A stretch of DNA of 64,000 nucleotides from Apostichopus japonicus (lineage: Eukaryota; Echinodermata; Holothuroidea; Aspidochirotida; Stichopodidae), in the NCBI RefSeq assembly GCF_037975245.1, contig NC_092572.1:3695501-3759500 (forward strand), given 5' to 3'. Shown piece by piece: positions 1 to 57,803 of the stretch. The translations under genes were made by a program, and so were the position numbers. Within the stretch, counting starts at the first letter, position 1. The number at the start of each line of letters is the position of its first letter. The notes under the pieces are model-generated. The model was not told the DNA's origin and did no database searches. It saw only the letters and a program-made list of their open reading frames with translations.

Positions 1-3000
1 AAAGTAAGTACAACATAATCATGGTTCACTTTAGGCTATATTTAAACAGAATTGAAAAATCCAACATCGAAAAACTATTACTAATTTATTAAGTTTTGCG
101 TTAAGAAAAGTTTAAACTACTGTTAATTAGGTAAAATATAGTTATATTTTCTACATGTATAAATTTCTTAAGAACACAAATCGATACTTTCTTCTTTATG
201 TCATTGAAATGGATATTAATGAACCGAAACTGCTTAACATTGGAGGTAATTGTTTAAACCCAATGTTTCAAAGGAAACTTCGTTTAATATTAAGAAGGCT
301 TTATTTCTTACTTAAAAATATTTATATTATCTTTTCAGACAGACATGATAGAAGTTGCGAATTCTCTTCCAATCGTAAAAGGTATATTTTCAAATATGCA
401 CATATTATACGTTTGACACCGTTAAAAGAGTATAGCTTTTATTGTTGTTTATTACATCTGCCCACCCGATTCTCATAGCTAGTACAGTAACTACTGTTCA
501 TGTTCCACAACCGTGCATCAGTAACTACTAGGCTGTGTTCGCATCACGGTAACATGTGTTACAGGTGGCACTGTAATTACTGCAAAGCTGTTACACGTTA
601 AGCTCCGAAAGGTGAAAATGCGCGGCCGCTGGGTAACGAAGACTACTCCCTAATTGTATACTGCATGCGAGATTTAGATGGTAGCCTCAATTTTTTTTCT
701 AATCGTATTAGTAAATCCATTTGCTTGAAACATTCTTCACGGACAGATGATAATGTGCAAGTCTCAAATAGATACAAACAGATATACAAAACGGGACCTA
801 AGGTGGGGGAGGGGGAACCTAGATTAGCCTTATGTATATATGTATGTATGTATGTAGTTCCACGTCTAAACTAGGCCTTAATATAGTAATAGTTTAATAG
901 TGTAATAGTTGTCCATTCGCGCAGTTCTTTGTCTTACATTGGAACGTGTAACAGCTTTGCAGTACTTACTCTGCCACCTGTAACACATGTTACCGTGTTG
1001 CGAACACAGCGCAGTAGTTACTGATGCACGGTTGTGAAACTTGAACAGTAGTTACTGTACTAGCTATGAGTATCGGGTGATCTGCCGTAACTGATCGTGA
1101 ACACAGCAGCAAATGTATTTCATTAATGCACGAATCGAGGAACAGTTAAAGAAGTAATAGTTCTTGACCTGGTTCAAACCTTTCCCAGTCTAATCAAAGT
1201 TAACTGTTTGTTTTAGAACTCTCTTGATGGAATTGTTAACATGTATTTGAGCCTGAACAGTTACTATATAGCTTATCACAGTATAGAGTGAACTGTACAA
1301 AGTACGAAATCGTAGCACACGTCATTCATTGACCGTTATGTCTATCCACTGCCAGGCTCGCTGTACGTCTTGACATACAGACATCGGTTGCTATACCAAC
1401 TATGCCCTTGTATAACGTCGTTATGTATAGCCTATTTTTGACCTTACCAGCCTGGATATCTTCTTTATAAAGATCCACTGTATAAAAATATCTTGTACAT
1501 TACATATACTACATAACTGTTTGATAGGTCTACTTTCAAAACTTTTTTCATGACATCACAGTCTAGATTACATATGTTGTTTCCTAAAGTTTGCAATTAA
1601 TTTTTAAATGTTGAAAGATTTCCACGCATAGCTTATTTGTTATGTTCATGATGAAATCAATCAAGCTGGTGGAAGTATAAAGGATTAACTTTCTCCGTTC
1701 TTCTTAATTCTTTTTTAACTAACGTTTATGTCGTTATAGATTTCAGAAAGAAGATGGTAACAGTGATAATGACAAGAAAGAGAGACAACAAAGTGTTTAC
1801 TATCACAATTACCCTGCAGGTATTCAAATAAGTTATATAATAAAGTTATATCGTCTACTTGTATAAATTTCCTAATAACACTAATCGATCCTTACTTCTG
1901 TATGTCATTTAAATGGATGTTAATTAACCGAAGCTGCTATACACTGGAGGTAATTGTTTCTAAACCCAATGCCTCAATAATATGTAGTAGGGTTTATTTC
2001 CAACTTCAAAATATTTTTAATATATTTTCAGACAGACACGATAGAAGTTGCGTATTCTCTTCCGAACGTAAAAGGTATATATTTATATACAACATATTAT
2101 ACGTTAGACTCAGTTAACAAATAATAGCTTTTATTATTGTATCTTACATCTAACGTTACTTATCGTGAACACAGCCACAAAGAAAATTCAAGTAATGCAC
2201 GAATCGAGAAACTGTAAACGTTATTTTCCAAAAGAAGTATATAATAGTTCTTGACCTGGTTCACACCTTTCCCCGTCTGATCAAAGTTAACTGTTTGTTT
2301 AAGAACTTTCTTGATGGAATTGTTCACCTGTATTTGTGACAGAACAGTCACTATATAGCTTTTCACAGTATATTGTGTACTGTACGAATTAATATTCGTA
2401 GCACACGTCATTGACCGTTATGTCAAATCACTGTATCGCTGTACGTCTTGACATAAACACATCCGTGTTGCTTCACCAACTATACCCGTGCGGATCTTCA
2501 TGCTGTACTACCTATTGCTGTGTACCATATTAATTTTGACCTTACCAGCCTTCGAGTGTTCTTTATACAGATATATTGTATATAGATATGTTGTACATTG
2601 CATACACTACATAACTGTACGATACATTTACATTCGAAACTTTGTTCATGCCATCACAGTCTAGATTACATATATTGGTTAAGTTTGCAGTTTATATTTA
2701 AATGTTGCAATATTTCCACGCATAGTATACTTGTTATGTTCATGATAAAATTACTATACCTGATGGAAGTATATACGATTAACTTTTATAAACCTATCTT
2801 AATATATCTTAACTTTTCTGTCGAGATAGATTTCAGAAAGAAGAGAGTAACGGAGATAATGACAAGAACGAGAGAAAACATAGTGTTCACTATGACAATT
2901 ACCCTGCAGGTATACACTGCAACCATTTTTTTTTTACTAATAATCTAAAGAAAGCACATTTTTGTCATATAAATCATTGTTTAAGCACTTTTCATGTTGG

Positions 3001-3562
3001 CTTCTTTATTATTTTGATTTTCTAACTTAAAAGTTTCATATCAGGTATCCGAACAATAGAAGTATTACTTCCTTACCCAAATGAGCACTTGGACAATATT
3101 ACTTCGAAACTTCGATACAGACGTTTTTGCTATAATTACTCATTTGCTTATATTTATTCTTATCGTGAAATGTCCTTCCATTTACTCTGCAGATATTCAG
3201 CTTCATGCAGCCACTAATTCTATATATGAAATGTATGTAACTTCGTTTATTACTTTTTTATATTTTACAATGCAAGTTTCACAAAAAACAAGTATGATTT
3301 CATATTTTGTTTGAAAGTTTTAGTAATATGACTGTCCATTATTTCAAGTATTTATACAAGTTTATAAAAATATTCGTAGTATTAGCAAAAGGCCGTAACG
3401 TATTCATGAAAGACGAATCTTTCAGTGAATTATGTTTGTAGTTTTCTCTTTTTCAATTGTTATAGTCCCAGCTGTGAGGAGGATGGGGAAATGGGATATG
3501 AGCCTTGCGTCATCGTCGATTGTGTCGCAGATTACACGTCTGGAAAAGAATATGATGTCTAA
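1..3562 (+). CDS. Ig-receptor paralogue A, cytoplasmic-tail exons (5' part lies outside the window)
   Basis: The window opens on the last three bases of an exon followed by GTAAGT; this site aligns with the end of the transmembrane exon of copies B and C. Tail exons by alignment to those copies: 339-381, 1740-1819, 2032-2074, 2830-2909, 3193-3232, 3466-3562 (stop 3560-3562). All junctions keep frame: 43-bp exons enter in phase 1 and leave in phase 2, 80-bp exons enter in phase 2 and leave in phase 1. The tail is about 127 residues, acidic and Tyr-rich. It carries the 43+80 module twice, with Tyr motifs SVYYHNYPA and SVHYDNYPA, then a segment ending NSIYEIP and a last exon containing GYEPCV and ending KEYDV. 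The YxN core is the type bound by Grb2-class SH2 domains, and the C-terminal V with Y at -2 could suit a class II PDZ domain; both are inference. It is the only one of the three copies with a full-length last exon. Confidence 0.72.
130..2930 (+). repeat. Intragenic tandem duplication of two tail exons and their introns in copy A
   Basis: About 130-1827 and 1828-2930 are direct repeats. Shared landmarks include the lead-in CTTGTATAAATTTCC (with mismatches), the 43-bp exon, an intron stretch beginning ATCGTGAACACAGC (near 1092 and 2160) and the 80-bp exon. The first unit is longer because a MITE sits in it at 463-1079. The duplicated exon pair totals 123 bp and is flanked by phase-1 boundaries, so the duplication adds exactly 41 residues without a frameshift. 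Confidence 0.75.
463..1079. mobile_element. MITE with about 135-bp terminal inverted repeats and 7-bp target duplication
   Basis: The left end starts CACCCGATTCTCATAGC and the right end finishes GCTATGAGTATCGGGTG. The arms 463-600 and 945-1079 are reverse complements with few mismatches. ATCTGCC flanks both sides (456-462 and 1080-1086). Paralogous intron positions near 2150 and 20700 lack the insert and read straight through, which proves insertion. The interior of about 340 bp has no credible coding capacity. Superfamily is unclear; a 7-bp duplication is uncommon. Confidence 0.85.
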
Positions 3563-4320
3563 ATCTGGATTAGCAACTATGGAAACAAATTTCGCTCCTT
3601 TAAATTTATATTTTACAAATACTGTACCATACTATACTGTCCTATCATACCATGCTTCAAATCACTGACAGTACGAAAAGTTTCAATAATGCTCCATCTG
3701 TCAGTTGTTTGTGTTTTCTTCCTGTTATTTGCATTTCTAAAGTAGGTGTTATAAAAGTGTAAAGTGCAATCAAAAGTGATGCTTGGCTTCTTGAAAGCTC
3801 AAACACGATATCGCATTCCTTTTTATTGTTATATATTTATGTTCCTTTTTCTAATTTTCCATGCAGCAAATATACATTAACAAAGGAAAACAATAACACA
3901 AAAAAAATTCTGTAGATAGAACAATGCACTTTATTTTGATAATTCTTATGAACATTTGTGATTTGCTAGAATTAAATATTAATATTAATTAATGAAATGA
4001 ATATTATGTTAGCGAAGGATATGTTTTCGTTTGTTTATGATAGTATTTTCAGAACGCCATCAATAGAATATATATATGCGAAGAAACTGTGTTCATTTGT
4101 TCTTGATAGCATTTTCAGAACGCCCACACTTTCAGAGGCACCATTCTTTAAAAACTCGAGAATACTTTCGTTGGTAATAATATTACAAATTAATTGCCTG
4201 AAAAGATTATATTTGTTAAAATTTTAACATATTTAAAAAGTATTCATTGTGACAAACGAGATCATTGAGAATAATTATAATTTTGTTACTTTTAGTTTGT
4301 TACTAATGATTTACTAAAGT
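3563..4320 (+). other. 3' flank of paralogue A
   Basis: No gene beyond the receptor 3' end. Segments recur downstream of B (about 15310-15750) and C (about 22600-22960), for example the shared TTCAGAACGCCA element, which occurs twice here (near 4050 and 4120). The duplication unit therefore includes a substantial 3' flank. Confidence 0.5.
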
Positions 4321-4324
4321 TAAG

Positions 4325-5665
4325 ATTGAAAGATTACCTTTTTCGGAATAATAGCAGAGCGCATACAGATCTTACCACAGCACAGAGACAGCCTTATTAC
4401 GTGTGCATAACGATTTTTTATTTGCTGCTGAGATGAAGCAGTTTTGGAATGCTGGATTATTCTGCAGCATTTGATACAATTAATCATTACCTTTTTGTTT
4501 GACCGCCTTGTAAACAGATATGGTATTGCAGACACGGCACGAAATTGGTTCAAACATATATGACTCATAGATCTCAAGTTGTAAACGAGCGGGATGCCAC
4601 AAGGCTCTGTAATCGACCCGTTTACGTTCATCATGTACACGTCTCTTCTGGAGGACATTATTCAAAGTCATGGTACCATGCTGATGATACGCAATTTACA
4701 CTCTAATGAGACACGATAAACTATTGCTATGCTTTCAAAATCGGAATCCTGTGTCAGAGATATCAAATATTGGTCTATTACAAATGATATGAAATTGAAC
4801 GATGACAACACCGAGATTATTCACCTATCATCTCGCTTCAGATGGGTACCACCTGTTTCGTATGTCAACTTCGGTAACGTTCTAATTGAACATGTGTGTA
4901 AAGTTCGGAATAAAAGGGTCATATTTGATAGCAACCTAAAGATGGATTCGCATGTAAATAACATTTGCCGTGCAGCACTTTATGCTCTTCGTAAAATCGG
5001 TAAAATTTGTAGTTTCCTCGACGGACGAACAACTGAGCGTCTTGTTCATGCATTCATCTCCTCTCGATTAGATAACTGTAACAGTTTGCTGTTTAGTCTA
5101 CCAGATCATCAATTGAGCACATTAAAACGCATTCAGAAATCTGCTGCCAGATTGGTCTCACGATGTAAGTCATGTCTCTCACATCACACCTATCCTTAAT
5201 GACCTTCATTGGCTCCCTGTCAAACTGCACATTGACTTCAAAGTCATCATGTTAACTTTTAAGTGTATTCATGGCATCGCTCCTTGTTATCTGAGTTGCC
5301 TTGTGCAAAACTACACTCCAGCGCGCCGTCTAAGGTCTAGTACAAAGTAATTACTGGTTTCACACCCGGTATCCATAAAATCATACGGCCAACGTTCCTT
5401 TCAATGTGCTTCGGCTTTTTTTTTCAATAGTCACCCAGAGCATGTCAAATGTGCTCAGTATGTTAATAACGTCATATGTTTTCACGGTTGTAGTGTATTA
5501 TATTTTGTGTACATGTTTGTTTTGTGTACAATACATCGAGACTTTGTTGTGTGTTGCGCTTTATAAGAACTGTATTATTATTATTATATTATTATTACGG
5601 TCGTCATCGTCATCATCATTATTACTATTATTAAGATTGTACACTTTCATTATTTCATCAGATTT
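4325..5665 (+). mobile_element. Decayed CR1/L2-type non-LTR retrotransposon, 3' part of RT
   Basis: Reverse-transcriptase landmarks are readable in changing frames: LDYSAAFDTINH at 4452-4487 (motif A), GMPQGSV at 4591-4611 (motif B) and YHADDTQ at 4674-4694 (motif C). A longer open piece at 4729-5199 includes ITNDMKLNDDNTEI and RLDNCNSLLFSLP, typical of the region after the catalytic core in this group. Frameshifts and stops make it a relic. The 3' end runs into ATT/CAT short tandem repeats near 5570-5640, as is common for CR1-like tails. The paralogous positions after B (about 15745) and C (about 22940) are uninterrupted, so it inserted in the A-B spacer only. Confidence 0.8.
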
Positions 5666-5669
5666 TTTG

Positions 5670-7939
5670 TAGACACAAGAGTAACAACACAATCTCCGCT
5701 ATAAAGATACACATTGTCTCTGTATTGTCTAAACTCACGTTCGTAAATTACTTTTGCTTTATTTTCTTATTGATTTTACTCCTAAGAGACTCCTGTAGAG
5801 ACTATTTCCCATTGACGACTTACACACACTGCAAACCTGTAAAAAGTTGAGGATTACCGTTTAAGACAGTTTTAGGTATATAGGTAATAAATACAATAAT
5901 ATTAGGTTAATATGGGAGAGGGAATTCCCCAGAAGAATTTAAGCGCCTGCTACGATGACCCAAATGAAACGGTGGAATTTTTATCTCCATATTTCTCATC
6001 TCTGAATTCAGCCGATACTTGTAGCTGGTACATCAACTACGGTTCATGTGCCACAACCATGCATCAGTAATTATTACTTTATGTTCGTATTAAAGTGTTA
6101 CAGGTGGTACTGTAACAACTTCAAAGCTGTTAAATTGTTCCCATGTATCTCCCTGAAATACTTTGTCATTTTCTCGAAATATTGAGAAATACTACAAAAT
6201 CGTCTTCTTTTTCTTTGCCGCTTCTGACATTGAAATGCCATTTTCTCACCTAAATCCCCCTAATGGGAACAAACATTTCTCAAATTATAGGAAGGGAAAA
6301 ACTCTCCAGAAGTAAGGCTCCTTCTGGCCCAGATCCAGGGTGTGTGGAGATTCACAACAACAACAAAATCCTAAAGGAGTATTAACATATGGTTATGATC
6401 TAATTATAGACCCAATTATAAATCAAATTATAAACCTAATTTATAGTATAAAGATGCCTCGGATTTTTGGATATCAAAGGGTTTTATTCTGGCTGATGGG
6501 TGCATAACCCCCTCCCCTCTCCCACCGACATGGCAGTCATCTTATCGATTTTATATGTATAGCAATTTGACCATTCTGCATAGCATTCTGCGATGCCATA
6601 CCGGATAACTTATTCCGTCGATGTAGGTTAGTTTCAAGACATATGTTTAGAAAACCCACGATTTGTTCTATGCAACGTTCATTGAAAACATTATGGAGGG
6701 ATTAATAATAAAGGAGACCCATTACGTTGGACATTTGTATACTAAGAGGCCATGATACAACCTACATTGTCTTTGTAGTTTAGGGTTGTATTACCTTTGA
6801 CGTAGTTAGCCAGAGCATCCATTGTCACAATTTACACTGGTTTCGCCATTTATGTGTACTGCACAGTTTACACAAAATTTCATATATATGAGGACACACA
6901 TTTGAAGAGTCGGTATAATGTTATCAATCACAGATTGATGAGTATCAAGTTAAGGTAATTCCAATTATGTATTCCATTTTAAACTTGACCGAAGCGATAC
7001 CAGAGTCGTCAATTTATGTCAACGTTTTTGACATTTGCATTTAGAAAGCAATCATATAATTATGACAAAGTACTTTCCAGAAAAATTTACAATGAACAAT
7101 TGGTAGATCCAAATCTCAACAAAAAATTCAAGACTCTGTCTTGCCTCTGTTTACCAATAATTTCATCTTTGTTACTATAGTTTTAGCCGAGACACAAAAT
7201 CTTTAGGCTGCTTGCGTCCGACGGATGGAATTTTTTTATTTTGGAGAAATACTTTGGAGAAGTACACATACTCACAACAATATAAAACATAACAAAGGAC
7301 ATTATTTTTGAATGAGCATCGTTTTTTCTTTTTCTTGAAATGCACAACTTCTTTACAAAAGTACCAACATGTCTTCCATGATCAAAAAATTGTGATGCTT
7401 CAATACCGAGCTGGTAACTTTAGATTACTGAGATTTTAATGCTAAAATAGTCTATGATGTTAGGCCATTAGGCCTTGTCACAAGTTTCGACGACAACGCT
7501 CATGGTTCTACTTTCGCATAAAATCTAAATCATTGTTTCGATCACAAATGTCATGAGTTGGGACAATTTATCAATTTTACGAGAAGCTAACATCTCCGAT
7601 GCAGAAAAGGATTTTCCATCTAACAATATGTCATTTTTCTCCCGTGAGAGTTGTTAAGGTGAACTGTGCATTCATATACCGGAAAAGTAAAAACGCGCTA
7701 AAATTGCCTAAAACAAATGATCAATAAGTTTTATAGTATTTTCTATAGCAAACGAAAGGCGGTATTTAGAACACAAACACCGTGGAGACCCTTAAATTGC
7801 TTTCACAAATCAACACAACGAGTGTTTCCTGTTAGAAGGGTTACTTGCTTAGTATGATATGTTAATATTACGTATTGTTTTCTAACTCAAATTGCCGTCA
7901 TATTACTGTGCCTTACTGACGGATCGTGCTTCTTTCACT
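5670..7939. other. Spacer between paralogues A and B
   Basis: No gene seen. The start continues the receptor 3' flank shared with C (to about 6005). About 7080-7939 aligns with 15965-16675 upstream of C, so the duplication unit also includes distal 5' flank. Between these lies the MITE half at 6008-6150 and unassigned AT-rich sequence. Confidence 0.5.
6008..6150. mobile_element. Single arm of the long-TIR MITE family
   Basis: Starts CAGCCGATACTTGTAGC and follows the left-arm consensus of the 463-1079 element (CAACCATGCATCAGTAA, GTGTTACAGGTGGTACTG). No facing right arm was found, so it is a truncated copy. Confidence 0.65.
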
Positions 7940-8183
7940 TTCAGAACCATTGTTATTTACAATAAATATTATAATAAATGCATATAGAAAGTATAATATC
8001 TATAATAATAGTCAAGTCTCGATTAATATTAAGAACAATGAATTTCAGTTTGCTTAACAGGAAAGACACTGTCATTTGCTTCCTGGAGGCAGTTATTGCG
8101 TTTTAACTGAACAGTTTTATTCAGCGTCAAGATTTGTCTTCAGTTCAACCAAAACAATTTTGTGAGAATCCTTTAACCTCCTT
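7940..8183 (+). promoter_or_regulatory. Conserved 5' flank of paralogue B
   Basis: Roughly 240 bp directly before the start codon aligns well with 16676-16918 before C, including AGTTTGCTTAACAGGAAAG and TTCCTxGAGGCAG. The facing GGAA/TTCC pair could bind ETS or NFAT-type factors, but that is inference from short motifs. No strong TATA box at a standard distance was seen. It may hold promoter and 5' UTR. Confidence 0.35.
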
Positions 8184-11100
8184 ATGGACGTAGAAACCTA
8201 TTTAATACAAGTACCGCCTTACACAAGATGGTTGCTATTCGCTTTCATAGTTTCTTTGTCAGGTAAGTGTCCAATTATTAAATTATCAAAACAGATCAAC
8301 TATAGGAACACATCTTATTCAGTAAATTATAATTCAGTTCACATATTTCCATTTCAGTTCAATCAATCAAGTATGTCACGGTTATCGCTGCTTTTAAACA
8401 ATATGGTATCGAGCAAATTAAATTTATTGACGGGAAATACTTTCCTGCTTTATATTTGATAAACAAGTTGTGACTTATACACCTAATGGTTGTGTTCAAG
8501 TTCAGCCGATACTCATAGCTTTAACAGCATCCAGTGTGCATTATTAATGACTGCTGCGTATTTGTGACACGGTAACATGTGTTACAGGTAGCACTGTAAC
8601 AACTGCAAATTGTTAACTTGTTCCCATGTAAGACAAAGAACTGCGCGACTGGACAAGGAGTCTATGAAGACAAGGAGGTACGGTACCGTTTGATTCCAGT
8701 TAACACCTCTCTTTAAATTACGCTAATTTGTCATGCCGAGAACGAAGAAAGGCCATGTTCGGGTATATCCAATACGCCTATTTATAGCATGAAACGACTA
8801 GATACGACTTCATTTTAGAATCGCGTATTATTGAACTCGCACAAAATGATCGATACAGCAACTACTGATCATGTCCCACAACGCGCATCAGTTAATACTA
8901 CTATGTGTTCGTAACACGGTAACTTGTGCAACAGGACAGTAGTCACTGACCAGCTATGAGTATCGGGTGTCAAGTTCATGATGTGTGCTATTTAAAATAA
9001 CTACCATTAAGTTAAGTATTTAAACGCTCAGGAAGTGAGCGATGAGGCACTAATTGTGAGCCAATAATATTTTGGAATACCCCTGTCTCGTTGTGAAACT
9101 TAACATGCAAACGATACTAAATATTACGAAGGGTTCTGAGTTATTGCTCCAATAGCTTAGTAGTTTTGCAAACAAATAATCGTTTCAATTCAAGGTTAGT
9201 TCCTTAGTTACATTCTTTTAATCTTCAGTATCCTATTTCTGGAGTGATACCTCAAGCCAAAGTAAATGCTTGTTCTAATTTGCAGTTTCTTTGAACGAAA
9301 GCACGGAAGTTCTTACACAGTTTGGTACCGTTGGAAAAATAGAACTAAACTTCAACACGAGTGGATATGTGCCAATCGTCACGTGGACTTTACCTCAATC
9401 GACAACCATTCAACATAATTTACAAGTGGATAACGTAGTTAAGACGACCGAAGACTACAACTCTACTGTGACGGAAAACGGCATGTTTGCTGCACTGGAG
9501 ATTTACAATGTCAACTTTCTTGATGCAGGTACATATACCTGTCGTATGGACTTTTCAGACACAGGAAGATCGTCAGAAAGATCCATTCAAGTTTCAGTAT
9601 TTGGTGAGGACCAAACATTTCATAAACTATTACTATGTAATGCAAAAGGCTATGACTCTATTTACTACTTTTCAAGTAGTTTTAACAACGTTCAAAATTA
9701 AATTCCTCTTTCTTTTTAAAAAGTTCAACGATCTTAGTCACTTTTGCTCCCGCAGCTTTTCCATCCGTTTCAATGAAAAATGGTGCCACAGAAAAAGAGA
9801 CACTTTCAGTTACATGTTGTTTATATGTGTCCCTTGAAGTAGAGGACAGCATCATGTGGACTCTTAATCAAAGTGGACATCTGCTAATTTTGCAAGAAGA
9901 GAAGAAGTATTCTACAGAGGGAGTTATGAAACATATGTGTAGTGAGATTACCTTTGAAGTACATCGTCGCTATCATCGTCAATTGTTAAGGTGTTCGTTG
10001 CGTAAAGCGATGAATGTCTACTCGGAAGTGGCAATGGACGTCCAATGTAAGTAATATAATTTGCAACATACGTTGTATAATATTTCACAGTCAAGCTCAT
10101 GAAGATGTTTCACAAAGGAAATTAGTTTTCGATATTTGTTATTACGATTGGCTAAGAAGGTGTCAGCATAGAAACTGAATCAACTTAAATGGTCATACAG
10201 GAAAATACACCTTGTTACAGTACTATGTATTCAAGTTCATTGTCAAGAGGGGCGTCCACTAGTAATTTTCTGTATATTGCCTATCTAAAGTATGTTGTAA
10301 GTCATATTACCTATATAGTTCATTACATCTCCTTTATTCAAAATCACGCTAATTTATATGATGCCACTGGATTATGGTCGGCCATTACCGCAAAACAAAA
10401 TATAAAACTTTATTAGTTAAATTACACCAAAAATCAACTTAACATGAGAAAATAGGGTACTTTATCCCGCATTCCGTCCTACTAACAACAAATGTAAAGA
10501 AGAAATAAATGAATCAGTTCAAAATAATTACTCCCGTCCGAAATAAATTCACCACTAAACCTCCGATTGAATAGACCATAAACTTGGCAATTTACCAGCA
10601 ATGTCAAGCACGCCATTTATGCGTTCTGGGGCGAGTGGTCTACATTTATTTTGATGGAGACAAAATGATTTTTGGTGTAATTTAATTATTTTATAATTTG
10701 TTTTTGCGGTAAGGGCTGCCCAAACTGAATCAGTATTTGCCTTTACACCAAATCATTGATTCCAATAGAGTTCGCCGAATGTTAAATTCATTTCCATGCG
10801 GTACACACATTAATGACGTTTGTGGGCTGGTAAGCTAAGATATCAATTCATGTTTATTGTTCGGATTGTTTATTAGACCCAGCCTCAATCAGATACGCAG
10901 AGAACGGCTTACGTTATCTAACTGTTCACCAGTTTGCCAACGTATGCTGCATTTCTGAGGGTAACCCTAGACCAAGTGTAGAATTACAATGGCTGTCAAC
11001 AGAAGGATATTGGAATATCCTATCCAACGTTACTGCATATGTTTATGATAGAGAACCATACATTTATTCAACGTTCAAGATACACGTCGCAGCGAGACAG

Positions 11101-14100
11101 CCTCTGCAAGTCAGATGCTTTGCTATTAACAAGATTCCTCCAGCTGCAACAACACAAGTATTGAATCTTGTAGCTAAATGTAAGTCTTCAATTATGAACA
11201 AGTAAGAAAATCATACAGGTGAACTTATTACAATTTTAACACTAATAGGTATCAGCTGGTTTTGTTCGTCATAGAACCGAAACTGTGTTAAGAATTTGTT
11301 CTCCACAATTCCACAACTGGGCATCGAAGTTTACGCCTGATTAAGGTTTCTTTATCAACAAAAAGGACAATAAGAAATCTTCAAAAAGAAGCTCTTAGAT
11401 TAATGTCATCTTATGTCAATTTCTCTAAAGAAAAATAACACTGCAGCCTACCGTTAACTACTGGCACCGTTTAACATTTGCAGCAAAACATAAATGATAT
11501 ATGTTCATTTAATTGTTTTGTAACAGTTCCAGCCAGTGTACGTATGTTGAGCCTCTCAACTACGATCCCCGAAGGAAGTGACATAATTATTGAGTGTCAG
11601 ACTAACGGATATCCTCCCCCTGATACAATGTTAGTTATGCTCTCGAACATGAATGGATCTGAGTGGACACACCTTCCCATAAAAGCCAAGATGATCAACA
11701 GAGGCACTACTACTTGGAAGTTTGAGCTGAAAAGCCTGGCTATGAACAATACTGGGGAATACCAGTGTGTTGCTAATAATTCAGAAGGATATGCGTCAAG
11801 TAAGACGATTGAAATAAATGGTAGGTTCGCAACTGCTTGCCGGCAGTTTCACCAAAGGTCAATCATTTTTGAAAATAACATTACATGTGTTCAAAATATG
11901 GTAGCTATAGTTCTTCTACTTTTTATTCTATGAAAGTTAAGTTTTCACGGTTATCGCTTTCAAAGACCTCAACTAGTCCATCAATCAATGTACTGAATCA
12001 ATGCTCACGGTCTGCTTAGTCACAGTTGATCTGCATATAGTATTGTGTGTATTTTATTTGATCCGTTACTGACTCTTCTCAGTAATACGTACATTCCAGT
12101 GTTCATTTTTTTCTTTGCAGTGACCACTAGGGTGTTTTTAACACGAGAATTATTAGCAATCGTAATTTTAGCAGTTCTTGCTTTCATTTTTCTGGTGGCT
12201 CTGCTAAGACAATTATTAGAAAGTAAGTATACCAAAATCTTTGTTTCACTTTTGGCTATATTTAAGACAGAATTGAACAATACAGCATATGTAAAAACAC
12301 TGTACACTCTCTAAGTTTCAAAGGAAAACCATAAAAACGATATTGCCATATATTCAACTTCCCAAAGAAAGACGATTTTGTAAGTGTTTGAATAATGTAT
12401 TATCAATTGTTTTATAAAAAAAAGTTTAAAATACTGTTGCATTAGGTACAATAAAATAATATCTTCCAATTGTATCAGTTTGTTAAGAATACAAATCGAT
12501 GCTTAATTCGTATGTTTTATGTAAATATATTTTTAATAACCGCATCTGCTATCCAATGTAGGTATATGGTTACCTCAAACGCAATGACTCGAAGGAAACT
12601 GCATTGAACTGTTAGTAGTATGGTATTTTATCCACAAAGACTGAGCTTAATTTCCAACTTAAAAGCATTTTGATTATCTTTTCAGACAGACATGATAGAA
12701 GTTGTGTATTCTCTTCTGAAAATAAAAGGTATATATTCAAGTATATAAAATGTTAAGCGTTATCATAGCTCTTATTATTGTTTGTTACACCAATAATGGA
12801 GACATATGCACTATTGGCGAAATTAATTAACACGATTGATGTTTCCTTAGTTTTAGTTTTAGTTGCAAAAAAGATCAACTCTTTTTAAAATGAATATAGA
12901 TAGCAGACACTCTTATTTCGTTAGACACCTAATTTGGCAAGCAAAGTGGAAATATCAATGTTCCATTATGGCACGAACTTAGCAACGTTGCTTTCTAAGC
13001 TGATCAGGTACAGAATATAGACATGTAGAATGTAGAATATTGTAAAAGTGCACGATAGGCCTATAAGTAGTGTAAATTAATGACCGGATATCACGTTAAA
13101 GCACAATTCTCTCTTTGTTGAGGGTAACATAGTACGTAAACCACATTATTTTCTATACATTCTTCATTAGAAAGACATAGATGTAAGGGGATTAGTAGAC
13201 AAAGGATGAAGAAAAGGGATGGAAGAGACAAGGGGTGTAATCCCTTTTCTACTATTAATCCCCTTACATCTATCTCTTTGTGTTCACCATGCTCGTTAAC
13301 CTGTCTGTATTATGTGCGTGTTTTTGTCCCTTCTGTTGGTGTTATTTGTCATTTAGCCTCTGAAGAAAATCCTGATAGGATCAAAACGTCAGGCCAACTT
13401 ACTTTTACACATTCTCTTACACAGGCTCTTTAGTGGATAAGCAGTTTGCTAACAGATTTATTTTATTTGATCTTACACTTCTACTAAGTTAAGTAAAAGT
13501 GTATGTTTTTTTCAGGTGGAGTGTATCATCTAATGATGACCTTTTCATCTTGGGAACCTTTGATTATAAAGATCTACTGTATCTAAATAGACTGTATATT
13601 GCTTACATAATTGAACTGTATGATTTTTATAAAACACTTACATCACGATCCAGATGAACTGCAGAGACACGTTTGACACAAAAAGAAAGTTGTAAGTCAT
13701 TCGAAAGGAAAAGTTTCGTTCTCAAATTTGTGTTCTATTTTCATAATTGAGGGGTTTTCCTAAAATTTAAGTACAAAATTATTTATACCTGCTTGGTTAA
13801 CATTCCATGAACAAACGTTATTACATATGCCATTTGCAAACTTGTCATAGTCATGATGAAATTACTGCATTGTTTAACTACTTTATTTGTGGTAATAAAT
13901 ACGGTTAACTTTTTATAAATCTATTTTCTTTTCAATTTTTTCTTAATTTCTTATTAGCAAACTTTTAAGTTGTACACATTTTTTTTAGATTTCAGAAAGA
14001 CGAAAGTAACAGTGATAATGTCAATAACGAGAGACAACCAGGTACTAACGATTACAATTATCCTGCAGCTAAACACTATATACATTACTCTCTTCATTTA

Positions 14101-14687
14101 ACTAACGTTAAAAGTTTCATATTAGGTATCCGAACAATATAATTACTGCTTCCTTACCCAATGAGCAATTTAACACAATGTTGATGAAAGAATTTTTAAC
14201 TTTCGTTTTTGTCTTTTGTCTACACATTTCCTTCTACAGAAACGTGTATTGCTATAACTATTTATTTTACATTTATATTTTTGTTGCACTCTTCAGGCAT
14301 TCCACTTTACGCAACCACTACCCCTAGATACGATTCGTATGTAGCTTTCTTGATTATTTTATTATTTTATTTACAATGTAATATTTACTAAACTGAAGTA
14401 TGTTTTCATATTTTATTTGAAAGTTGTTTTCATAATATGACTGTGCATTACTTCAAACAACAGAGATAGATATGTAGTGTTTGTTTGAGATTATGCGGTG
14501 ACCCTGCATATTCAACATTAGCTGTTATGTTAATAATAATATGTTAAGAATGCAATGTGGGTAGTGTTACAATTCGTCCGTAACGTATTCATGAAAAAAA
14601 AACTTTCAGTAAATCATGTGTGTAGTTTTTCTCCTTTTCAATTTTTATAGTTCCAGCTGTGAGGAGGATGAGGATTGGGAAAATTAG
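8184..14687 (+). CDS. Ig-domain transmembrane receptor, paralogue B
   Basis: Exons: 8184-8262 signal peptide (core WLLFAFIVSLS), 9286-9603 Ig1, 9756-10046 Ig2, 10877-11179 Ig3, 11527-11820 Ig4, 12121-12222 transmembrane, 12686-12728, 13989-14068, 14297-14336, 14651-14687 (TAG). Every extracellular exon is phase 1-1 and a multiple of three. Ig4 is a clear I-set fold (IIIECQTNGYPPP, then NTGEYQCVANN). Ig1 has DAGTYTCRMDF but Asn where the first Cys is expected (KIELNFN). The membrane span contains LLAIVILAVLAFIFLVALL. Likely an adhesion or immune-type receptor; the ligand is unknown. Oddities: the 80-bp tail exon ends GCAG|CT instead of GCAG|GT, so the ancestral donor is gone. An in-phase CAG|GTACTA lies 27 bp earlier (after 14041), and read-through would stop at 14140-14142. 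The last exon has an early TAG. The start is the first ATG, conserved in C. Confidence 0.78.
8358..8473 (+). other. Possible alternative or relic exon after the signal-peptide exon of B
   Basis: A good acceptor (CCATTTCAG) precedes an open stretch in the phase left by the signal exon; it reads VQSIKYVTVIAAF, later GIEQIKFIDG and FPALYLI, and stops at 8471-8473. Copy C has the same feature (17114-17241) with conserved frame. No convincing shared donor exists, so it could be an alternative terminal exon giving a short secreted product, or a dead exon. Confidence 0.35.
8503..8969. mobile_element. Long-TIR MITE copy in intron 1 of paralogue B
   Basis: The left end CAGCCGATACTCATAGC and right end GCTATGAGTATCGGGTG match the 463-1079 element. 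TCAAGTT flanks both sides (8496-8502 and 8970-8976), again 7 bp. It shares an interior stretch with the first element (AAGAACTGCGCG, reverse complement near 920). The same site in copy C holds a shorter relic, so this insertion predates the B/C duplication. Confidence 0.8.
13170..13450 (+). mobile_element. Penelope-like terminal fragment in a tail intron of B
   Basis: Contains an inverted repeat (AGATGTAAGGGGATTAGTAG near 13180 facing CTACTATTAATCCCCTTACA near 13252), then GAAAATCCTGATAGGATCAAAACGTCAGGCCAACTTACTTTTACAC-like sequence to AGTGGATAAGCAGTTTG. The 3' 100 bp recurs at 25645-25745. The small hairpin followed by GAAACGTC in the second copy recalls the degenerate hammerhead-type ends of Penelope-like elements. 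The intron is about 520 bp longer than in C, in keeping with insertion. Confidence 0.45.
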
Positions 14688-14689
14688 CC

Positions 14690-16675
14690 AGTTGCCTTCG
14701 TCGATTGTTTCGACGATTACACGTCTGGGAAAGAATATTATGTGCTAAATTGGGATTAACACCGGAGACAATTTCGCTCGTTCAAATTCTTTACAAGACG
14801 GCCACAAGTTTGCCAATGCTATAACATACTATACTCTCCTATTATACCAAGATTCAAAGTACTATTACTGATAGTACGAATAGTTCCTAAACTTTATCTG
14901 ATAGGAAAATAATATCCATCGTGCCCATTCTGTCAGTTCAAGTGTTTTGAAACAAAACATGAATAGAAACAGTGTATGCAAAGGTGTTTCACCGTTTGAT
15001 CGCAAAGACATAAAGGAAATGAACATGAACTAATACAACTAAAATTGAATATCAAATAGCTATGCATCAGTGTTATTATCCATGTGTTTTGTGTGATTTC
15101 TTCTTGTAATGTGCATTGTTATTGTTTGTAGGTGTTATTTTTGTCATTGCAATCAAAGGTGATGCTTGGCTTCTGGAAAGCTCAAAAACGATATCGCATT
15201 CCAATTTAATGTTATATATTTTGATTAATTTAACTTCCATTTTCTCCGTTCCCATGCCACCAATATACAATAATTAAAGATCAGTATCAATTAAACAGTA
15301 TTTTATATATCTGTGTATAGACAATGCACTTGTCTTTGATAGTTCTTATTAACTTTGCTATTCGCTGGAAATATATATAAGATTGTTTTCGTGCTATTAA
15401 AACTGGTACCCCAACCTACTTTAATTTTCTCTTTCATCAGCAAGCTAACTTTAGACCAATACATTTGCATTGATATTATTATTATTGTTATTGTCATTGT
15501 CATTGTCATCGTCATTGTCATTTATATTGTTATTGTTATTATTATTATTATTATTGAATTTAATGAAAATACTATTTGCAAAAGAACTATGTTTTGTGTT
15601 CATGACAGCATGTTCAGAACGCCATGGAGTTTCAGAGATACCATTCTAAATTAATAAAAGTAAATTTATTGTTATGATCGAGATCATTGAGAATATTTTC
15701 CATTTTGTTACTTCTCGTTTGTGACTAACGATTTACTATAGTAAAGATTCTACACATTCCTTATAACATGATATGTTTTATAGAGAAAAAGAGTACCAGC
15801 ACAATCTCCGTTATGAATATAAACACTTTGTTCTCTGTATTGTCTATAGTCTTATATATTGTATGAACTATGACCTCACATTCTTAAACTGTTATTGCGT
15901 TCATTTTAATTGATCTTTACTCATAAGAACGGAAGTGTAGAAGCGACAGTGTAAAACTGTACAAAAAAAAATTGTTGGCGATCCAATTCTCAACAAACAT
16001 TCAACAATGTGTCCTGCCTCTGCTAACCAATAATTCCAGCATTGTTACGAACGCAGGACACAAGGTTTTAGACAGGGACACAAAATATTTACGTTCGACA
16101 AACGGATCTTGCTGTTTTTGAGAAACAAACCCCAAGTGCACACACTCATAACTAGGCTAATGAAAAACATAACAAACACATGATTATTGAATGACCCCCT
16201 TACTTTCTTTCCTTTATAGATGCACAACTTATTTTCAATAGTACCAAACTATGTCCAATCACCATCTGTGTCAATACAGAACTGGCAACACTTGGATTAC
16301 TGAGATTTTCATAATAAGTACCTTATGGTGCTTTTACAAATTTCCAATGATTTATTTACTAACAGTCCCTTGCCCATTGTCCTCAGAACTTCTTGCATAT
16401 ACAGTGCTCAATGAGCACAGAGTATGTTTTTGAAGAACAACTACTTGTGACGTCGCTTCCACAGTGTACAGACAGAAAAGTTTGTGGTATAGGATATCAT
16501 GTTTGCATTCAAATATTACCGTGGAGACCCTATAATTGTTTTGATTAATCCATACAATGAACGTTTTCTGTTAGAAAACTACTCGATTAGTACGATGTGT
16601 TAATAATACGTACTGTTTTAAGCACTAATTGTCTTAGTATTGTGCCTAACTGACAAATCGTGCGTCTTTTACTTT
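14690..16675. other. Spacer between paralogues B and C
   Basis: No gene recognised. About 14690-15960 is 3' flank shared with A and C; about 15965-16675 is 5' flank shared with the region before B. It contains the microsatellite at 15473-15556. The CR1-like insert of the A-B spacer is absent here. Confidence 0.5.
15473..15556. repeat. ATT / ATTGTC microsatellite
   Basis: Mixed ATT and ATTGTC units; no coding meaning despite open frames on both strands. Confidence 0.85.
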
Positions 16676-16918
16676 CAGAAACCATTGTAATTGACATAAA
16701 CTAATATAATAAAGTCATATAGAAAGTAAAATATCTATAATATTAGTCAAGCCTAGTTTAATATTAAGAAAAATACATTTCAGTTTGCTTAACAGGAAAG
16801 AAACAGTCATTTTCTTCCTAGAGGCAGCTATTGCTATTTTTCAGAACAGGTTTATTCAGCGTCAACGTTGGTCTTCAGTTCTACCAAAAAAATCTAGCAA
16901 GAATCCTTAACAGTTGTT
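16676..16918 (+). promoter_or_regulatory. Conserved 5' flank of paralogue C
   Basis: Aligns with 7940-8183 before B, including AACAGGAAAGAAACAGTCA and TTCTTCCTAGAGGCAG. It may include core promoter and 5' UTR; no transcription start can be fixed from sequence alone. Confidence 0.35.
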
Positions 16919-19900
16919 ATGGACGTGAACACAAATTTAAAACAATTGTCGCCTAACACAAGTTGGTTATTATTCGCTTTCATGGTTTCTTTGTCAGGTA
17001 AGCCTCAAACTGTTAAAATTATTAAAAGAGATCAACTATAGGAACACATCTCTAAATCGCAAATATAGTTGTGTTCAGTCAAGTATAATTCAATTCACAT
17101 GTTTCCATTTCAGTTCAATCAATCAAACATGTCACGGTTATCGCTGCATTCAACAATAATGGTATTGAACAAATTCAATTGATAGACGGGACACACATTC
17201 CTGCTTTATATTTGATAAAATGTTGTCACTTATACGCCTGATGGTTAGGTTCAAGTATGCTGTTCATGTCCCACAACCGTACATCAGTAACTACTACTTT
17301 GTGCTCGTAACACGGTAACATGTTTTACAGGTCATGAACAGTAGTCACTGTAGCAGCTATGAGTGTCGAGTGTCAAGTTCATGATGTGTGCTATTTAAAA
17401 TAATTACAATTAAGTTTAACATTTAAACGCTCAGGAAGTAAGCGATGAGGCACAAATTGTCAGCCAATAATATTTTGGAATAATCCTCTCTCGTTGTGAA
17501 ACTTAACATGAAAAAAATACTTAATATTACGAAGGGTTCTGAGTTATTGCTCCAATCGCTTAGTTGTTTTGCAAACAAATAATCGTTTCAAATCAAGGTT
17601 AGTTCGTTAGTTACATTCTTTTAATCTTCAGTAACCTATTTCTGTATTTATACCTCAAGCCAAAGTAAATGCTTGTTCTATTTTACAGTATCTCTAAACG
17701 AAAACACGGAAGTTCTTACACAGTTTGGTACCGTTGGAAAAATAGAACTAAATTTTAACACGAGTGGACATGTGCCAATCGTCACGTGGACTTTACCGCA
17801 ATCAACAACCTTTCAACATGATTTACAAGTGGATAACGTAGTTAAGACGACTAAAGACTACAATTCTACTGTTGCGGAAAACGGAATATTTGCTGCACTG
17901 GAGATTTATAATGTCAACTTTCTTGATGCAGGTACATATACCTGTCATATGGACTTTTCAGACACAGGAAGATCATCAGAAAGATCCATTCAAGTTTCAG
18001 TTATCGGTGAGAACCAACATTTCATAAAACATAACTGTGTGATGCACAAGGTAAAAGACTCTTTGTAGTTTTCCAGTTTTAACTAGCTTCATCAATGTTT
18101 AATATGAACTTCACCTTTCTTTCTTAAACAAAACCGTCGATCTTAGTACCTTTTACTCTTGCAGCTTTTCCATCCGTGTCAATGGCAAATGGTGCCACAG
18201 AAAACGAGACAATATCAGCTACATGTTGTATATATGTATCCCTTACAGTAGAGGACACCATCACATGGACTCTTAATCAAAATGGCCCTCTGCTAATTTT
18301 GCAAGAAGTGAAGACGTATTCTCCAGCGGGAGTTATGAAGCATATTTGTAGTGAGATTACCTTTGAAGTGCATCGTTGCTATCATCGTCAATTGTTAAGG
18401 TGTTCGTTTCGCAAAGAGATGAATGCCTACTCAGAAGTGGCAATGGACGTCCAATGTTAGTAATAGAATTTGCACCATACGTTGTATATATTTCACAGTC
18501 AAGCTCATGAAGCTATAGAAAAATGAAAATGATTTTTTTTTTGTTTTACAAATGTCTAAGAGAGTGTGAGCTTAGAAATTGAATCTACCTATATGGTCAT
18601 ACTGGGAAATACACAATCGGTACATACTATTTATTCTATATAGTTCATGGTCAAGAGGAAGACGTCCATTTTATGTATATTGCCTTTGTAAGGTATGTTG
18701 TGAGACACATTGTATTTGATCTCTTTTAATTCAAAATTCAGGCTAACTTTGCATTATCCCACTGAATATATTTTTTTCTTTAAACCAAATCATTGATTCC
18801 AATAGCGGCTGATGAGGGTAAATTCCTTTCCATGAGGTACACACATGATTGATTTTATGAATAACTTATGTGTTGCACACGCTAATTGTGCATGATGTGA
18901 CTGGATCACTATTTTTATTTAAGCCAAATCATTGGCGGTGATTGTTAAAATTATTCAATTCTTTCAAATGCAGATCCAGCTTCAATCAGATACGCATGGA
19001 ATGACTTACTTCATATATCTTTGCACCAGTTTGCCAACGTATGCTGCATTTCTAAGGGTAACCCAAGACCAAGTGTTGAATTACAATGGCTATCAACAGA
19101 GGGAGATTGGGAAATCCTCCCCAACGTCACTGAGTATGTTTATCATATAGAACCATACACGTATTGGACGTTCAAGATACACGTGGCCGTGAGACAGCCT
19201 CTGCAAGTCAGATGCTTCGCTATCAACAAGATTCCGCCAGCTGCAACAACACAAGTATTGAATCTTGTAGCTAAATGTAAGTCATGAAATATGAACACGT
19301 AACTAAAACTACAGGTGAACTTATCACCTTCACACTAAAGGGTATCAGTTGGCTCTGTTTTACATAGTACCAGAACTGTTTTAAAAAGTTTCTTCACAGT
19401 TCCAAGTCTGTGCTACGAATTTAACTCCTAATTCAAGTTTCTTTATCAACAAAAAGGACAAGATAATTTGGTGAAATGTCAACTTATGTCAATTTCTCTA
19501 CAGAAAATAGCAATGCAGCCTATTGTTAATTTCTGGCACCGTTTAACATTTGTAGCACAGCATAATGGATATATGTTCATTTTAATTGCATTGTAACAGA
19601 TCCAGCCAGTGTACGTATGCTGAGCCTCTCAACTACGGTCCCCGAAGGAAGTGACATAACTATTGAGTGTCAGTCAGACGGACATCCTCCCCCTAATACA
19701 AGGTTAGTTATGCTCTCGAACATGAATGAATCTGAGTGGACACACCTCCCCACCAAAGCCAAGATGAACAACAAAAGCATTACTACTTGGAAGTTTGAGC
19801 TAGAAGGCCTTGCAATGAACGATACTGGGGAATACCAGTGTGTGGCTAATAATTCAGAAGGATATGCGTCAAGTAAGACGATTGAAATAAATGGTAAGTT

Positions 19901-22007
19901 TGCAACTGTGTGTTAAATAAAGGGTGAGTTTGGCAGGCAGTTTCACTAAGTCTCAATTCATTTCTGAAAATAAAATTTAAAAAAAAGGCATACTAGATTT
20001 TTTTTATTCTATGAAAGTTATTTTTCACGGATATCGTCTGAAAAGACTTCAACTAGTCCTTCAACCAATGTACTGTATCAAACTAACGGTGTGCTTAGTC
20101 ACAGTTGGGGCCTGCATGTAGTTTTGTGTGTATTTTAATTGATCCATTATTGACTCCACTAAATAATACGTACATTCCAGTTTTCTGTTCTTTTGCAGTG
20201 ACATCTAGAGTGTATTTATCACGAGCATTATTAGCAATCGTCATTTCAGCAGTTCTTGCTTTTATTTCTCTGGTGGCTCTGCTAATACAATTATTAAAAA
20301 GTAAGTACACCATAGTCATGGTTTAACTGTAGGCTAAATGTAAGACAGAATTAAACAATGCAGCTAACACTTATTGACTTATTAACTTTTGTTTCAAAAG
20401 AAACGTAGATTTATATTACATCAAGAACAGAAATCGATCCTCAATTCTTTATGTCATTGAAATGGATGTTTATTAACCAAAGCTCCTATCTGATGGAGAG
20501 TTTTCGTTTTACGACAATGACTCAAAGGAAACTGCGTTGAATATGTAGTAAGGTTTATTTCTAAATATTATCTTTTCAGACAGGCATGATAGAAGTTGTC
20601 TATTCTCTTCCGAACGTAAAAGGTATATATTCAAATATGCCACATATTAAATGTTTGACAACTTTTAACGAATTAATGTTTTTATTATGGTTTCTTACAT
20701 CTGCTGGTACTGTTCGGTAACACAGCAGCAAATATATTCAAGTAATGCACGCATCGAGGAACAGTAAAAGTCATTTTTTGAAAAGAAGTAATAGTTCTTG
20801 ACCTGGTTCACACCTTTTCCCGTCTGCTTGTTAAGGAAATCTTTTGATGGAATTGTTCACATGATGAACAGTTACTATATTGATAAGCACAGTATATTGT
20901 GTACTATACCAAGAACATACTCGTAGTACAAGTCAATGACCGTTATGTTAGTTCATTTTATTGCTGTACGTTTTGACATAAACACATCGGTTTGTGTTGC
21001 TTTACCAATTATGCCATTGCGTCAGATCGTTATGCTGTACTACTTATGTGTTGATCAATGTATAACCTATTTATTTTCCAGCCTGGATATCTTCTTTATA
21101 CATATCTATTGTATATAGATATACTTTATATTATATATACTACATAACTATGCGATAGGTTTACATTCGAAACTCTGTTCATGCCATCACAGTACAGATT
21201 ACATATGTTGATAACCAAAGTTTGCAGTTTATTTTTAAATGTTCAGTTGTAACATTTCCACGAATAGCTGGTGGAAGTATATATGATTAACTTTTATAAA
21301 AGTGATTTCCTTTCTCTTTTTTTCTAAATTTTGTTTGACTAACGTTTAAGCCGATATAGATTTCAGAAGGAAGAGAGTAACGATGATAATGACGAGAACG
21401 AGAGACAAAAAAGTGATTACTATCACAATTACTCTGAAGGTATTCAATGCAGCTATTTTCTTTACTGATAATCTAAGAAAGCACACTTCCAACATGTAAA
21501 TCGTTTTTTTAAACACTTTTCACGTTGGCTTCTTTATTATATTAACTAACGTTAGAAGTTTCATATCAGGTATCTGAACAATAAAATAAAGTATTACTTC
21601 CTTACCCAAATGAGCATTTGGACAATATTACTTTCATCTTCTAATCTCCTGGTACAGAACGTTTATGGCTATTATTATTCATTTGCTTATATTTATTCTT
21701 TATCGTTGCTTTTTCTTCCATCCTCTTTACAGGCATTCAGCTTTACGCAACCACTATTCCTACATATGAATTGTATGTAACTTCCTTCATTACTTTATTA
21801 TATTATAGAACTTAAGATTTACCCAAAAAAAGTAAGATTTGATATTCTGTTTGAAATTTTTTGTAATAAGACTGTCCATTGTTGCATACAGTGGAGATAA
21901 AGAAACCGTCGTTTAATATAGCTTTCCAAATTCAACAGAATCATGTTTGTAGTTTTTCTCTTTTTCAATTTTTTTTTAGTACCAGCTGTAAGGAGGATGG
22001 GGAATGA
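16919..22007 (+). CDS. Ig-domain transmembrane receptor, paralogue C
   Basis: Exons: 16919-16997 signal peptide (WLLFAFMVSLS), 17689-18006 Ig1, 18165-18455 Ig2, 18974-19276 Ig3, 19600-19893 Ig4, 20199-20300 transmembrane, 20580-20622, 21360-21439, 21733-21772, 21980-22007 (TGA). The sum is 1578 bp, 525 residues plus stop, with all phases matching. Ig1 lacks the first Cys, as in B. Ig4 keeps ITIECQSDGHPPP and DTGEYQCVANN. The membrane span contains LLAIVISAVLAFISLVALL. The tail has one 41-residue module with SDYYHNYSEG (YxN core), then IQLYATTIPTYE. The last exon stops after CKEDGE, although sequence downstream in the same frame still resembles the longer end of copy A. The donor after Ig2 is GTTAGT rather than GTAAGT. 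This is the most intact copy in the window. Role is inferred as an Ig-superfamily signalling or adhesion receptor. Confidence 0.8.
17114..17241 (+). other. Possible alternative or relic exon after the signal-peptide exon of C
   Basis: Counterpart of 8358-8473: acceptor CCATTTCAG, then VQSIKHVTVIAAF, GIEQIQLIDG and IPALYLI in the phase of the preceding exon, ending at TGA 17239-17241. Frame is retained between the copies although bases differ. Confidence 0.35.
17255..17371. mobile_element. Internally deleted MITE relic in intron 1 of paralogue C
   Basis: Keeps part of the left arm (CCCACAACCGTACATCAGTAA) and right arm (GCTATGAGTGTCGAGTG) of the long-TIR family, then TCAAGTTCATGATG as after the copy in B. 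Same insertion site, internally deleted. Confidence 0.65.
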
Positions 22008-53820: not shown

Positions 53821-54480
53821 TTATTTCGGTGTAGATTTCTCAATAATCAGTGCGCCACAACTGTTATCTAACAGTATCCGACCACCTTCGCGATACGTGC
53901 AATCCCCATTCTTTAGATATTTTTTGAATTTGGATACTATTTCAGGAGAAGCGGTTTGTTCAAAATCTTTCACATGCGTCAGAAAATCAAGCAGTTTTTT
54001 ATCATCGGCACTACCGTCTTCAAATATAGAAGATACATCCACAACAGTACGTAGCATAACAGTTTTAAAGTTAATACTTTCTGTTTTCAAGAACTCTTCG
54101 ACTGTTTTCGAATTAACTTTCTCAGCTGGGTGATCCGTCAACTCCGGGAATTGTTGTCGCAAGAAATCAATTCCCAGGATTCCTTCAGTCTCGATGTCCG
54201 CTACCCATACTTCGTACTGGACCAACTTTTCTTTGATAATCAGCGAGAAAGTTGCGAAGCCGTCGTAGCCTAAGGGCTGTCCATTTGCCATTCCCACTTG
54301 CACTGAAGATTTTTGCAACTTTTGCCTTAACTCTTCAGAAATGGCATTGTAGACATCTGGCCTTACGATGGTGACATCTGCCCGGTGTCTACGACAAATG
54401 ACAATTTGACGTTCTCCAATTGCCCTTCAACTGTTACTTCTCGCCTACTTTTTCCTCTTTTCGCTGACTTCACGGAGGGT
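53821..54480 (-). pseudogene. Protease and C-terminal extension, unit 1
   Basis: The aspartic-protease landmark GILGIDFL is kept (about 54165). The region coding the active-site DTGAD loop carries a one-base deletion near 54380 relative to unit 2 (GCCCGG versus GCCCCGG on the + strand), which separates the catalytic loop from the rest. After the protease, a roughly 100-residue extension (TVVDVSSIFEDGSAD, LDFLTHVKDFEQTA) ends at 53821 with SCGALIIEKSTPK. In complete Gypsy elements RT follows about here; in this element the LTR does. Confidence 0.8.
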
Positions 54481-54490
54481 CTGTTGTCCC

Positions 54491-56100: not shown

Positions 56101-56107
56101 TGTCCTC

Positions 56108-57786: not shown

Positions 57787-57803
57787 GGAGGGTCTGTTGT
57801 CCC

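Follow-up and report, generated by a model that had tools for sequence, protein, structure and literature searches.

What kind of gene family occupies the left part of this 64,000-nucleotide stretch of the Apostichopus japonicus genome (C12:3695501-3759500, C12 being its chromosome; hereafter the window), and what might its products recognize? Investigation of the genomic sequence, taken from one genome and the basis of all results given here, revealed two multi-exon genes encoding immunoglobulin (Ig) domains on the + strand, gene B (8184-14687) and gene C (16919-22007), and the end of a third, gene A, which are the last three of 13 tandem units (C12:3,592,962-3,717,507). We lean towards reading the units of this array as type I membrane receptors, composed of a signal peptide, a V-like Ig1, a four-cysteine C2-like Ig2, Ig3, an I-set Ig4, a transmembrane (TM) segment and a short tyrosine-rich tail, which would form a germline-encoded surface recognition repertoire of immune or self/non-self function, because the layout, the turnover, the conflicting exon trees and the V-C2 tip fit such a repertoire. 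In such receptors the V-C2 tip would bind a ligand.

Structure of the tandem array

The initial annotation had proposed a locally expanding receptor family that may belong to a larger cluster to the left, and a scan of 209.5 kb (C12:3,550,001-3,759,500) with the exons of C bore this out, revealing the 13 units, all on the + strand; no further unit was detected with these exons in the 42 kb to the left of the array or in the window to the right of C. Ig exons are present in 12 of the 13 units. The complement Ig1-4 was found in eight (g1, g2, g6, g7, g8, g10, B and C), g4 has a second Ig3 and five Ig exons in all, g5 and A have three and lack Ig3, g9 is a fragment with parts of Ig1-2 (two Ig exons), and g3 (C12:3614758-3617163) has signal, TM and tail exons and zero Ig exons. 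Two minus-strand relatives were found at C12:0.64-0.65 Mb, where a 50-kb stretch contains 7,500 N.

Regarding gene structure (Table 1), B and C share exon lengths of 79, 318, 291, 303, 294, 102, 43, 80 and 40 bp, followed by the last coding exon, and their Ig and TM exons are of phase 1-1, both as first described; position 22007 is the final base of the stop codon of C. Splice sites are canonical in both genes except after the 80-bp exon of B, which lacks a canonical donor because CT stands where GT is expected. The third paralogue that had been claimed on the same strand is gene A, of which the window contains only the final TM bases and the cytoplasmic exons (1-3562), the remainder, including an ectodomain of Ig1, Ig2 and Ig4, lying to the left. 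Gene A has two signal exons, of which the nearer was used in the spliced model. The spliced models of A (493 residues), g1 (551 residues) and C (525 residues) are open, with AG/GT at all junctions. Matches above the curated Pfam cut-offs in B and C (Ig_3, I-set, ig, Ig_2 and V-set) place both genes in the immunoglobulin superfamily (IgSF).

Exons were more similar than introns in all four pairs compared, namely B-C (identity 0.898 vs 0.807), B-g10 (0.890 vs 0.788), A-B (0.886 vs 0.814) and g6-g10 (0.976 vs 0.967), and g6 and g10 are the only close pair (~97%). The repetition of the unit plan 13 times on one strand, the greater conservation of exons than introns and ratios of nonsynonymous to synonymous change (pN/pS) below 1 in each Ig exon confirm that the array is more than chance. 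A collapsed haplotype, named at the outset as an artefact that could undo the finding, was rejected, the exons of B and C being ~10% different and their introns containing many gaps.

Selection and apparent mosaicism

The values of pN/pS for Ig1 to Ig4 were 0.36, 0.64, 0.40 and 0.50, with upper 95% limits (codon bootstrap) of 0.51, 0.92, 0.60 and 0.82, from non-independent sequence pairs in sets that contain broken units (the exons of g6 and g10 included) and, for Ig2, leave out g5. The Ig exons evolve under purifying selection, which shows past use of the Ig frames without pointing to immunity in particular. No whole Ig exon showed positive selection by pN/pS, and the highest single 20-codon windows reached 1.03 (Ig4) and 1.05 (TM).

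These values also bear on the possibility that the array consists mostly of decaying duplicates that retain little function, B and C being near-pseudogenes. Part of the array is decaying, because g5, g6, g9 and g10 are broken (a frameshift in Ig1 of g5, TGA in Ig3 of g6, TAA in Ig1 of g10) and g3 has no Ig exon; in the scan with the exons of C, no tail exons were found after g4 and g8 and a single one after g7; and B and C have early stops, B having also lost a donor. Decay of the whole is nevertheless very improbable, as eight units (g1, g2, g4, g7, g8, A, B and C) have open ectodomain frames, the models of A and g1 are complete and the Ig exons are constrained even with those of g6 and g10 in the sets.

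The nearest relative of a unit differs from exon to exon. In cross-exon tree tests (Ig1, Ig2, Ig3, Ig4 and TM; nine of the 12 modelled units, A, g5 and the relative gY being left out; nominal p values), the approximately unbiased (AU) test rejected 19 of 20 at p<0.05, the sole tree accepted being the TM tree on Ig4 data, and the more cautious Shimodaira-Hasegawa (SH) test rejected 12 of 20. Because the exon trees conflict, the array genes appear mosaic, and we read the conflict as probable exon exchange or gene conversion, with short alignments, model error and unequal loss as possible partial causes. Copies would then diversify by tandem duplication, by exon exchange between paralogues and by gain or loss of whole Ig exons.

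An Ig2 superfamily on chromosome C12

The genome (671,581,487 bases, 35 contigs) was searched with five Ig2 proteins, representing the window family and blocks at 14.17, 6.64, 21.95 and 10.98 Mb. The union of these whole-genome searches (restricted to rows that reach E<=0.01 over the Ig2 portion of the query, with Ig3-type rows removed) contains 86 Ig2-type loci on C12, which are exons rather than genes, two of which may belong to one gene, and which include fragments and rows with stops (e.g., 14396641, 11042523 and 3633784). These are located at 0.64 Mb (1 locus), 3.59-3.71 Mb (12), 6.35-6.75 Mb (12), 10.95-11.26 Mb (17), 13.95-14.61 Mb (18), 17.63-17.72 Mb (2), 21.41-22.03 Mb (20) and 22.76-22.99 Mb (4). 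Three rows at E<=0.01, not counted among the 86, lie off C12 (C2:2258623, C17:433751 and C17:435806), and both C17 rows sit in a repeat with stops. The search works off C12 too, a generic Ig_3 search having scored matches on many contigs. Regarding the V-set model, 68 of 140 matches were on C12, which makes up 5.2% of the genome, and 72 elsewhere (150 of 653 candidates scored; tandem copies are non-independent).

In the stretches at 14.17, 6.64, 21.95 and 10.98 Mb an Ig domain precedes an Ig2 that contains a pair of adjacent cysteines; the first domain of the 6.64-Mb block matches V-set, and TM-like segments were detected downstream at 14.17 and 6.64 Mb. In seven aligned Ig2 sequences from the five blocks, C20, C21, W34, C61 and C79 are invariant, the double cysteine being read in these 7 sequences out of the 86 loci. 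By these similarities, the array is one block of a superfamily concentrated on one chromosome. C12 also carries other V-type families, because a V-set gene at 10.17 Mb (C12:10169501-10172500) that comprises a TM-like segment and three Ig-like frames has no double cysteine.

Further V-set clusters are present on C12 at 1.1-2.6, 7.4-8.2, 9.9-10.2 and 24.3-25.5 Mb. The repeat on C17 (429635-436699) proceeds in steps of ~98 bases, contains in-frame stops, matches one Ig2 query weakly and resembles a satellite.

The linkage of these loci invites comparison with the allorecognition complexes (ARC) of cnidarians, described as IgSF genes with V-set and I-set domains, with 41 Alr members in Hydractinia and, in Podocoryna, 22 linked members and 8 on five other chromosomes (PMC11999971, PMC13119343). 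As described there, the Alr genes resemble the C12 family in being a linked IgSF multigene family mostly on one chromosome, an analogy of layout only; they belong to a different phylum, and the four-cysteine Ig2 is particular to the C12 family. An allorecognition complex in this sense, in which linked polymorphic Ig receptors decide self/non-self between individuals, is improbable in the sea cucumber: the 86 linked loci, the conflicting exon trees and the V-like tip domain Ig1 would suit it, and coelomocyte allorecognition in one sea star is named in a review (PMC13428168), but the Ig exons show no positive selection and, on general reasoning, a solitary animal needs fusion control less. A broader proposal is that C12 bears a dispersed 'Ig receptor complex', with many linked V-C2 blocks, exon exchange and a germline repertoire for self/non-self recognition by coelomocytes, which would be the echinoderm equivalent of the ARC of cnidarians or of the leukocyte receptor complex of vertebrates; this we regard as conceivable yet doubtful.

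Domain relatives

Regarding Ig2, the C2-set_2 (CD80-like) domain was above the Pfam cut-off in one of five sequences (21.95 Mb) and the C1-set domain in another (10.98 Mb), the other three being below cut-off. The Ig2 profile gave CD22 domain 2 as its first match among PDB structures (E 6.5e-6 for the chain, 0.0041 for the best stretch), followed by CADM4 (0.004) and antibody constant domains. Ig1 gave only a generic V-set match, just above the Pfam cut-off. The Pfam and PDB profile searches yielded no named-family match, in agreement with the initial annotation, which recognized no named family, and the array genes are classed, on profile similarity, as IgSF without such a match in the libraries used. 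AlphaFold2 models of single exons, made without an alignment, were too poor for a fold claim (pLDDT 42.7 for Ig2 and 57.2 for Ig1), and Foldseek with the low-confidence Ig1 model returned nothing at E<=0.001.

With the whole-ectodomain profile, the first matches were Dscam, neurofascin and Dpr-interacting proteins, mainly over Ig4, and this generic similarity, together with the purifying selection on the Ig exons and the position of CADM4 second to CD22 among solved molecules, speaks for cell-adhesion or neural-recognition molecules (of Dscam, nectin or IgLON-like use) that happened to expand and whose variety serves cell-cell sorting and not defence. The Dscam ectodomain has ten Ig domains plus FNIII domains. 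No FNIII match was detected in B and C at E<=1 and each has four Ig exons, hence the layout is not that of Dscam. The broken copies, variable Ig number and tree conflict suggest more turnover than would usually be expected of adhesion sets, the tails are short and the related genes are concentrated on one chromosome, so that adhesion is a minority possibility, albeit an appreciable one.

Cytoplasmic tails

The tails are tyrosine-rich and in most copies end in DDY, five residues and YxVL. In gene A the pair of 43- and 80-bp exons is duplicated, and the reading frame is kept because the pair adds 123 nt and is phase-neutral. The tails of B and C differ mainly through early stops, which remove roughly the last 23-26 residues and appear young, as the lost part remains readable beyond the stop. 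The initial annotation had spoken of signalling variants. This is supported only in part: the cytoplasmic ends differ and are rich in tyrosine, but the differences consist of the exon-pair duplication in A, the early stops and the lost donor of B, and no canonical motif was detected in the tails scanned. The tail tyrosines probably serve as docking sites for adaptors of signalling or endocytosis, and copies without the distal tail (B and C) may act as weaker or decoy receptors.

All 12 copies in the comparison keep both tail tyrosines; gY (C12:0.64 Mb), the thirteenth, was excluded, being out of frame and without the second tyrosine. For the last tail segment pN/pS was 0.80 (95% 0.38-1.88); dropping B and C gave 0.75 (0.34-1.66). 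A conserved tail motif was rejected on account of the pN/pS interval, which spans 1, and of gY. YxN was found twice in A and once each in C and g1, and Yxx-hydrophobic motifs in g1, g10 and the end of g2. Canonical immunoreceptor tyrosine-based inhibitory (ITIM), activation (ITAM and hemITAM) or switch (ITSM) motifs were not detected in seven tail peptides from six genes, which include only the last 35 residues of g2 and two alternative readings of B. The TM segments of g1, A, B and C are unbroken uncharged runs of 19-21 residues (the pattern searched for uncharged runs), and a charged TM residue for an ITAM adaptor was not found in these four.

A genome search with a tail protein matched the array and the relatives at 0.64 Mb, plus one C17 row at E 2.9. 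As no other C12 block was matched, these blocks have different or unfound tails, and nothing supports a tail function common to the whole superfamily. Local receptor kinases as a source were considered and rejected: among the 139 of 1266 candidates scored, the kinase search listed C12 matches only at 22.46 and 27.39 Mb, and none within the Ig2 blocks. Tyrosine-kinase-like exons that all align to one portion of the kinase model occur in runs at C18:8.70-8.85, C19:8.83-9.14, C21:13.30-13.48 and C17:13.17-13.61 Mb.

The proposed recognition repertoire weighed

Several results weigh against a germline recognition repertoire. Positive selection, often expected of a fast-evolving non-self receptor, is absent from the whole Ig exons, and constraint was not demonstrated by pN/pS either for the tail end or for the TM exon (0.84, 0.49-1.57, an interval spanning 1). 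Part of the array is decaying, no canonical immunoreceptor motif was detected in the tails scanned, the tail query had no match in the other C12 blocks, and identity to the window family is only ~20-38% for Ig2 relatives beyond the array (21-24% in the seven-sequence alignment). The ectodomain profile leads first to neural and adhesion molecules, and IgSF expansions are also used in adhesion and neural wiring.

Comparison with known systems and significance

A recognition repertoire of this kind would share with CD22/Siglec and the vertebrate paired leukocyte receptors a V-like tip followed by C2, further Ig domains, one TM segment and cytoplasmic tyrosines. In contrast to these, Ig2 of the C12 family has two adjacent cysteines and the scanned tails are without canonical ITIM, ITAM or ITSM, the similarity to CD22 being weak and confined to one domain. 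The Sp185/333 proteins of sea urchins are not known to be Ig-domain transmembrane receptors. As described in the sources cited, Sp185/333 (SpTransformer) is nonetheless likewise an echinoderm tandem family with mosaic members (PMC13428168, PMC5103432). In the holothurian Chiridota heheva, V-set domains occur in the immune gene set, in NLRs that are intracellular, six having other domains, rather than in an array of TM receptors (PMC8913654). The oyster CgIgIT2, reported to recognize microbes, is another type I receptor of an invertebrate that combines several Ig domains with a tyrosine-bearing tail; it differs in having five Ig domains and a classic ITAM, and no linked array is described in the part of the source concerned (PMC11999971).

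Echinoderm immune repertoires have been described, in the sections cited, via the TLR, NLR, scavenger-receptor and Sp185/333 families (PMC13428168, PMC3659336). A term search of the available text of a paper on new gene families in a sea cucumber genome gave no mention of immunoglobulin, IgSF, 'Ig domain' or Ig-like (PMC13228809). No report of the C12 Ig receptor family was found in a literature search whose coverage left out most subscription journals, so its novelty is unproven. In an animal that lacks antibodies, the C12 family provides candidate receptors for immunity or self-recognition. If the proposed reading is true, a large, linked V-C2 Ig family in a vertebrate-related deuterostome would be a new place to seek coelomocyte recognition receptors and would test the repeated origin of chromosome-scale Ig receptor complexes.

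Table 1. Exons of genes A, B and C, given as window positions.
Gene	Exon	Position	Strand	Remark
A	Last 3 bases of TM exon (117 bp, rest left of window)	1..3	+	Spliced model, all sites AG/GT
A	Cytoplasmic 43-bp exon, first copy	339..381	+	
A	Cytoplasmic 80-bp exon, first copy	1740..1819	+	
A	Duplicated 43-bp exon	2032..2074	+	
A	Duplicated 80-bp exon	2830..2909	+	
A	40-bp exon	3193..3232	+	
A	Last coding exon, end ...DYTSGKEYDV stop	3466..3562	+	TAA 3560-3562
B	Signal-peptide exon, 79 bp	8184..8262	+	Signal peptide judged by eye
B	Ig1 exon, V-set-like, 318 bp	9286..9603	+	
B	Ig2 exon, four-cysteine C2-like domain, 291 bp	9756..10046	+	Four cysteines read in translation
B	Ig3 exon, 303 bp	10877..11179	+	
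B	Ig4 exon, I-set, 294 bp	11527..11820	+	
B	TM exon, 102 bp	12121..12222	+	19-residue hydrophobic run
B	43-bp cytoplasmic exon	12686..12728	+	
B	80-bp cytoplasmic exon	13989..14068	+	Donor CT, not GT
B	40-bp exon	14297..14336	+	
B	Last coding exon to early stop	14651..14687	+	TAG 14685-14687; tail motif continues in frame beyond
C	Signal-peptide exon, 79 bp	16919..16997	+	Signal peptide judged by eye
C	Ig1 exon, 318 bp	17689..18006	+	
C	Ig2 exon, 291 bp	18165..18455	+	Aligned with other Ig2 sequences
C	Ig3 exon, 303 bp	18974..19276	+	
C	Ig4 exon, 294 bp	19600..19893	+	
C	TM exon, 102 bp	20199..20300	+	
C	43-bp exon	20580..20622	+	
C	80-bp exon	21360..21439	+	
C	40-bp exon	21733..21772	+	
C	Last coding exon to early stop	21980..22007	+	TGA 22005-22007

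Other elements in the window

Similar short stretches in both orientations, several of them intronic, were noted by eye at window positions ~480-620, 900-1090 and near 6040, 8540, 8880 and 17270, and look like a foldback element or one of the miniature inverted-repeat transposable element (MITE) type. To the right of the array, reverse transcriptase (RVT_1) and RNase H matches at 29554-29994 (+) and 62016-63091 (+) represent retroelement remains. A unit of ~3.3 kb is present in two tandem copies at 53821-59888, with a similar pattern of open reading frames, one of which encodes a CCHC zinc knuckle.

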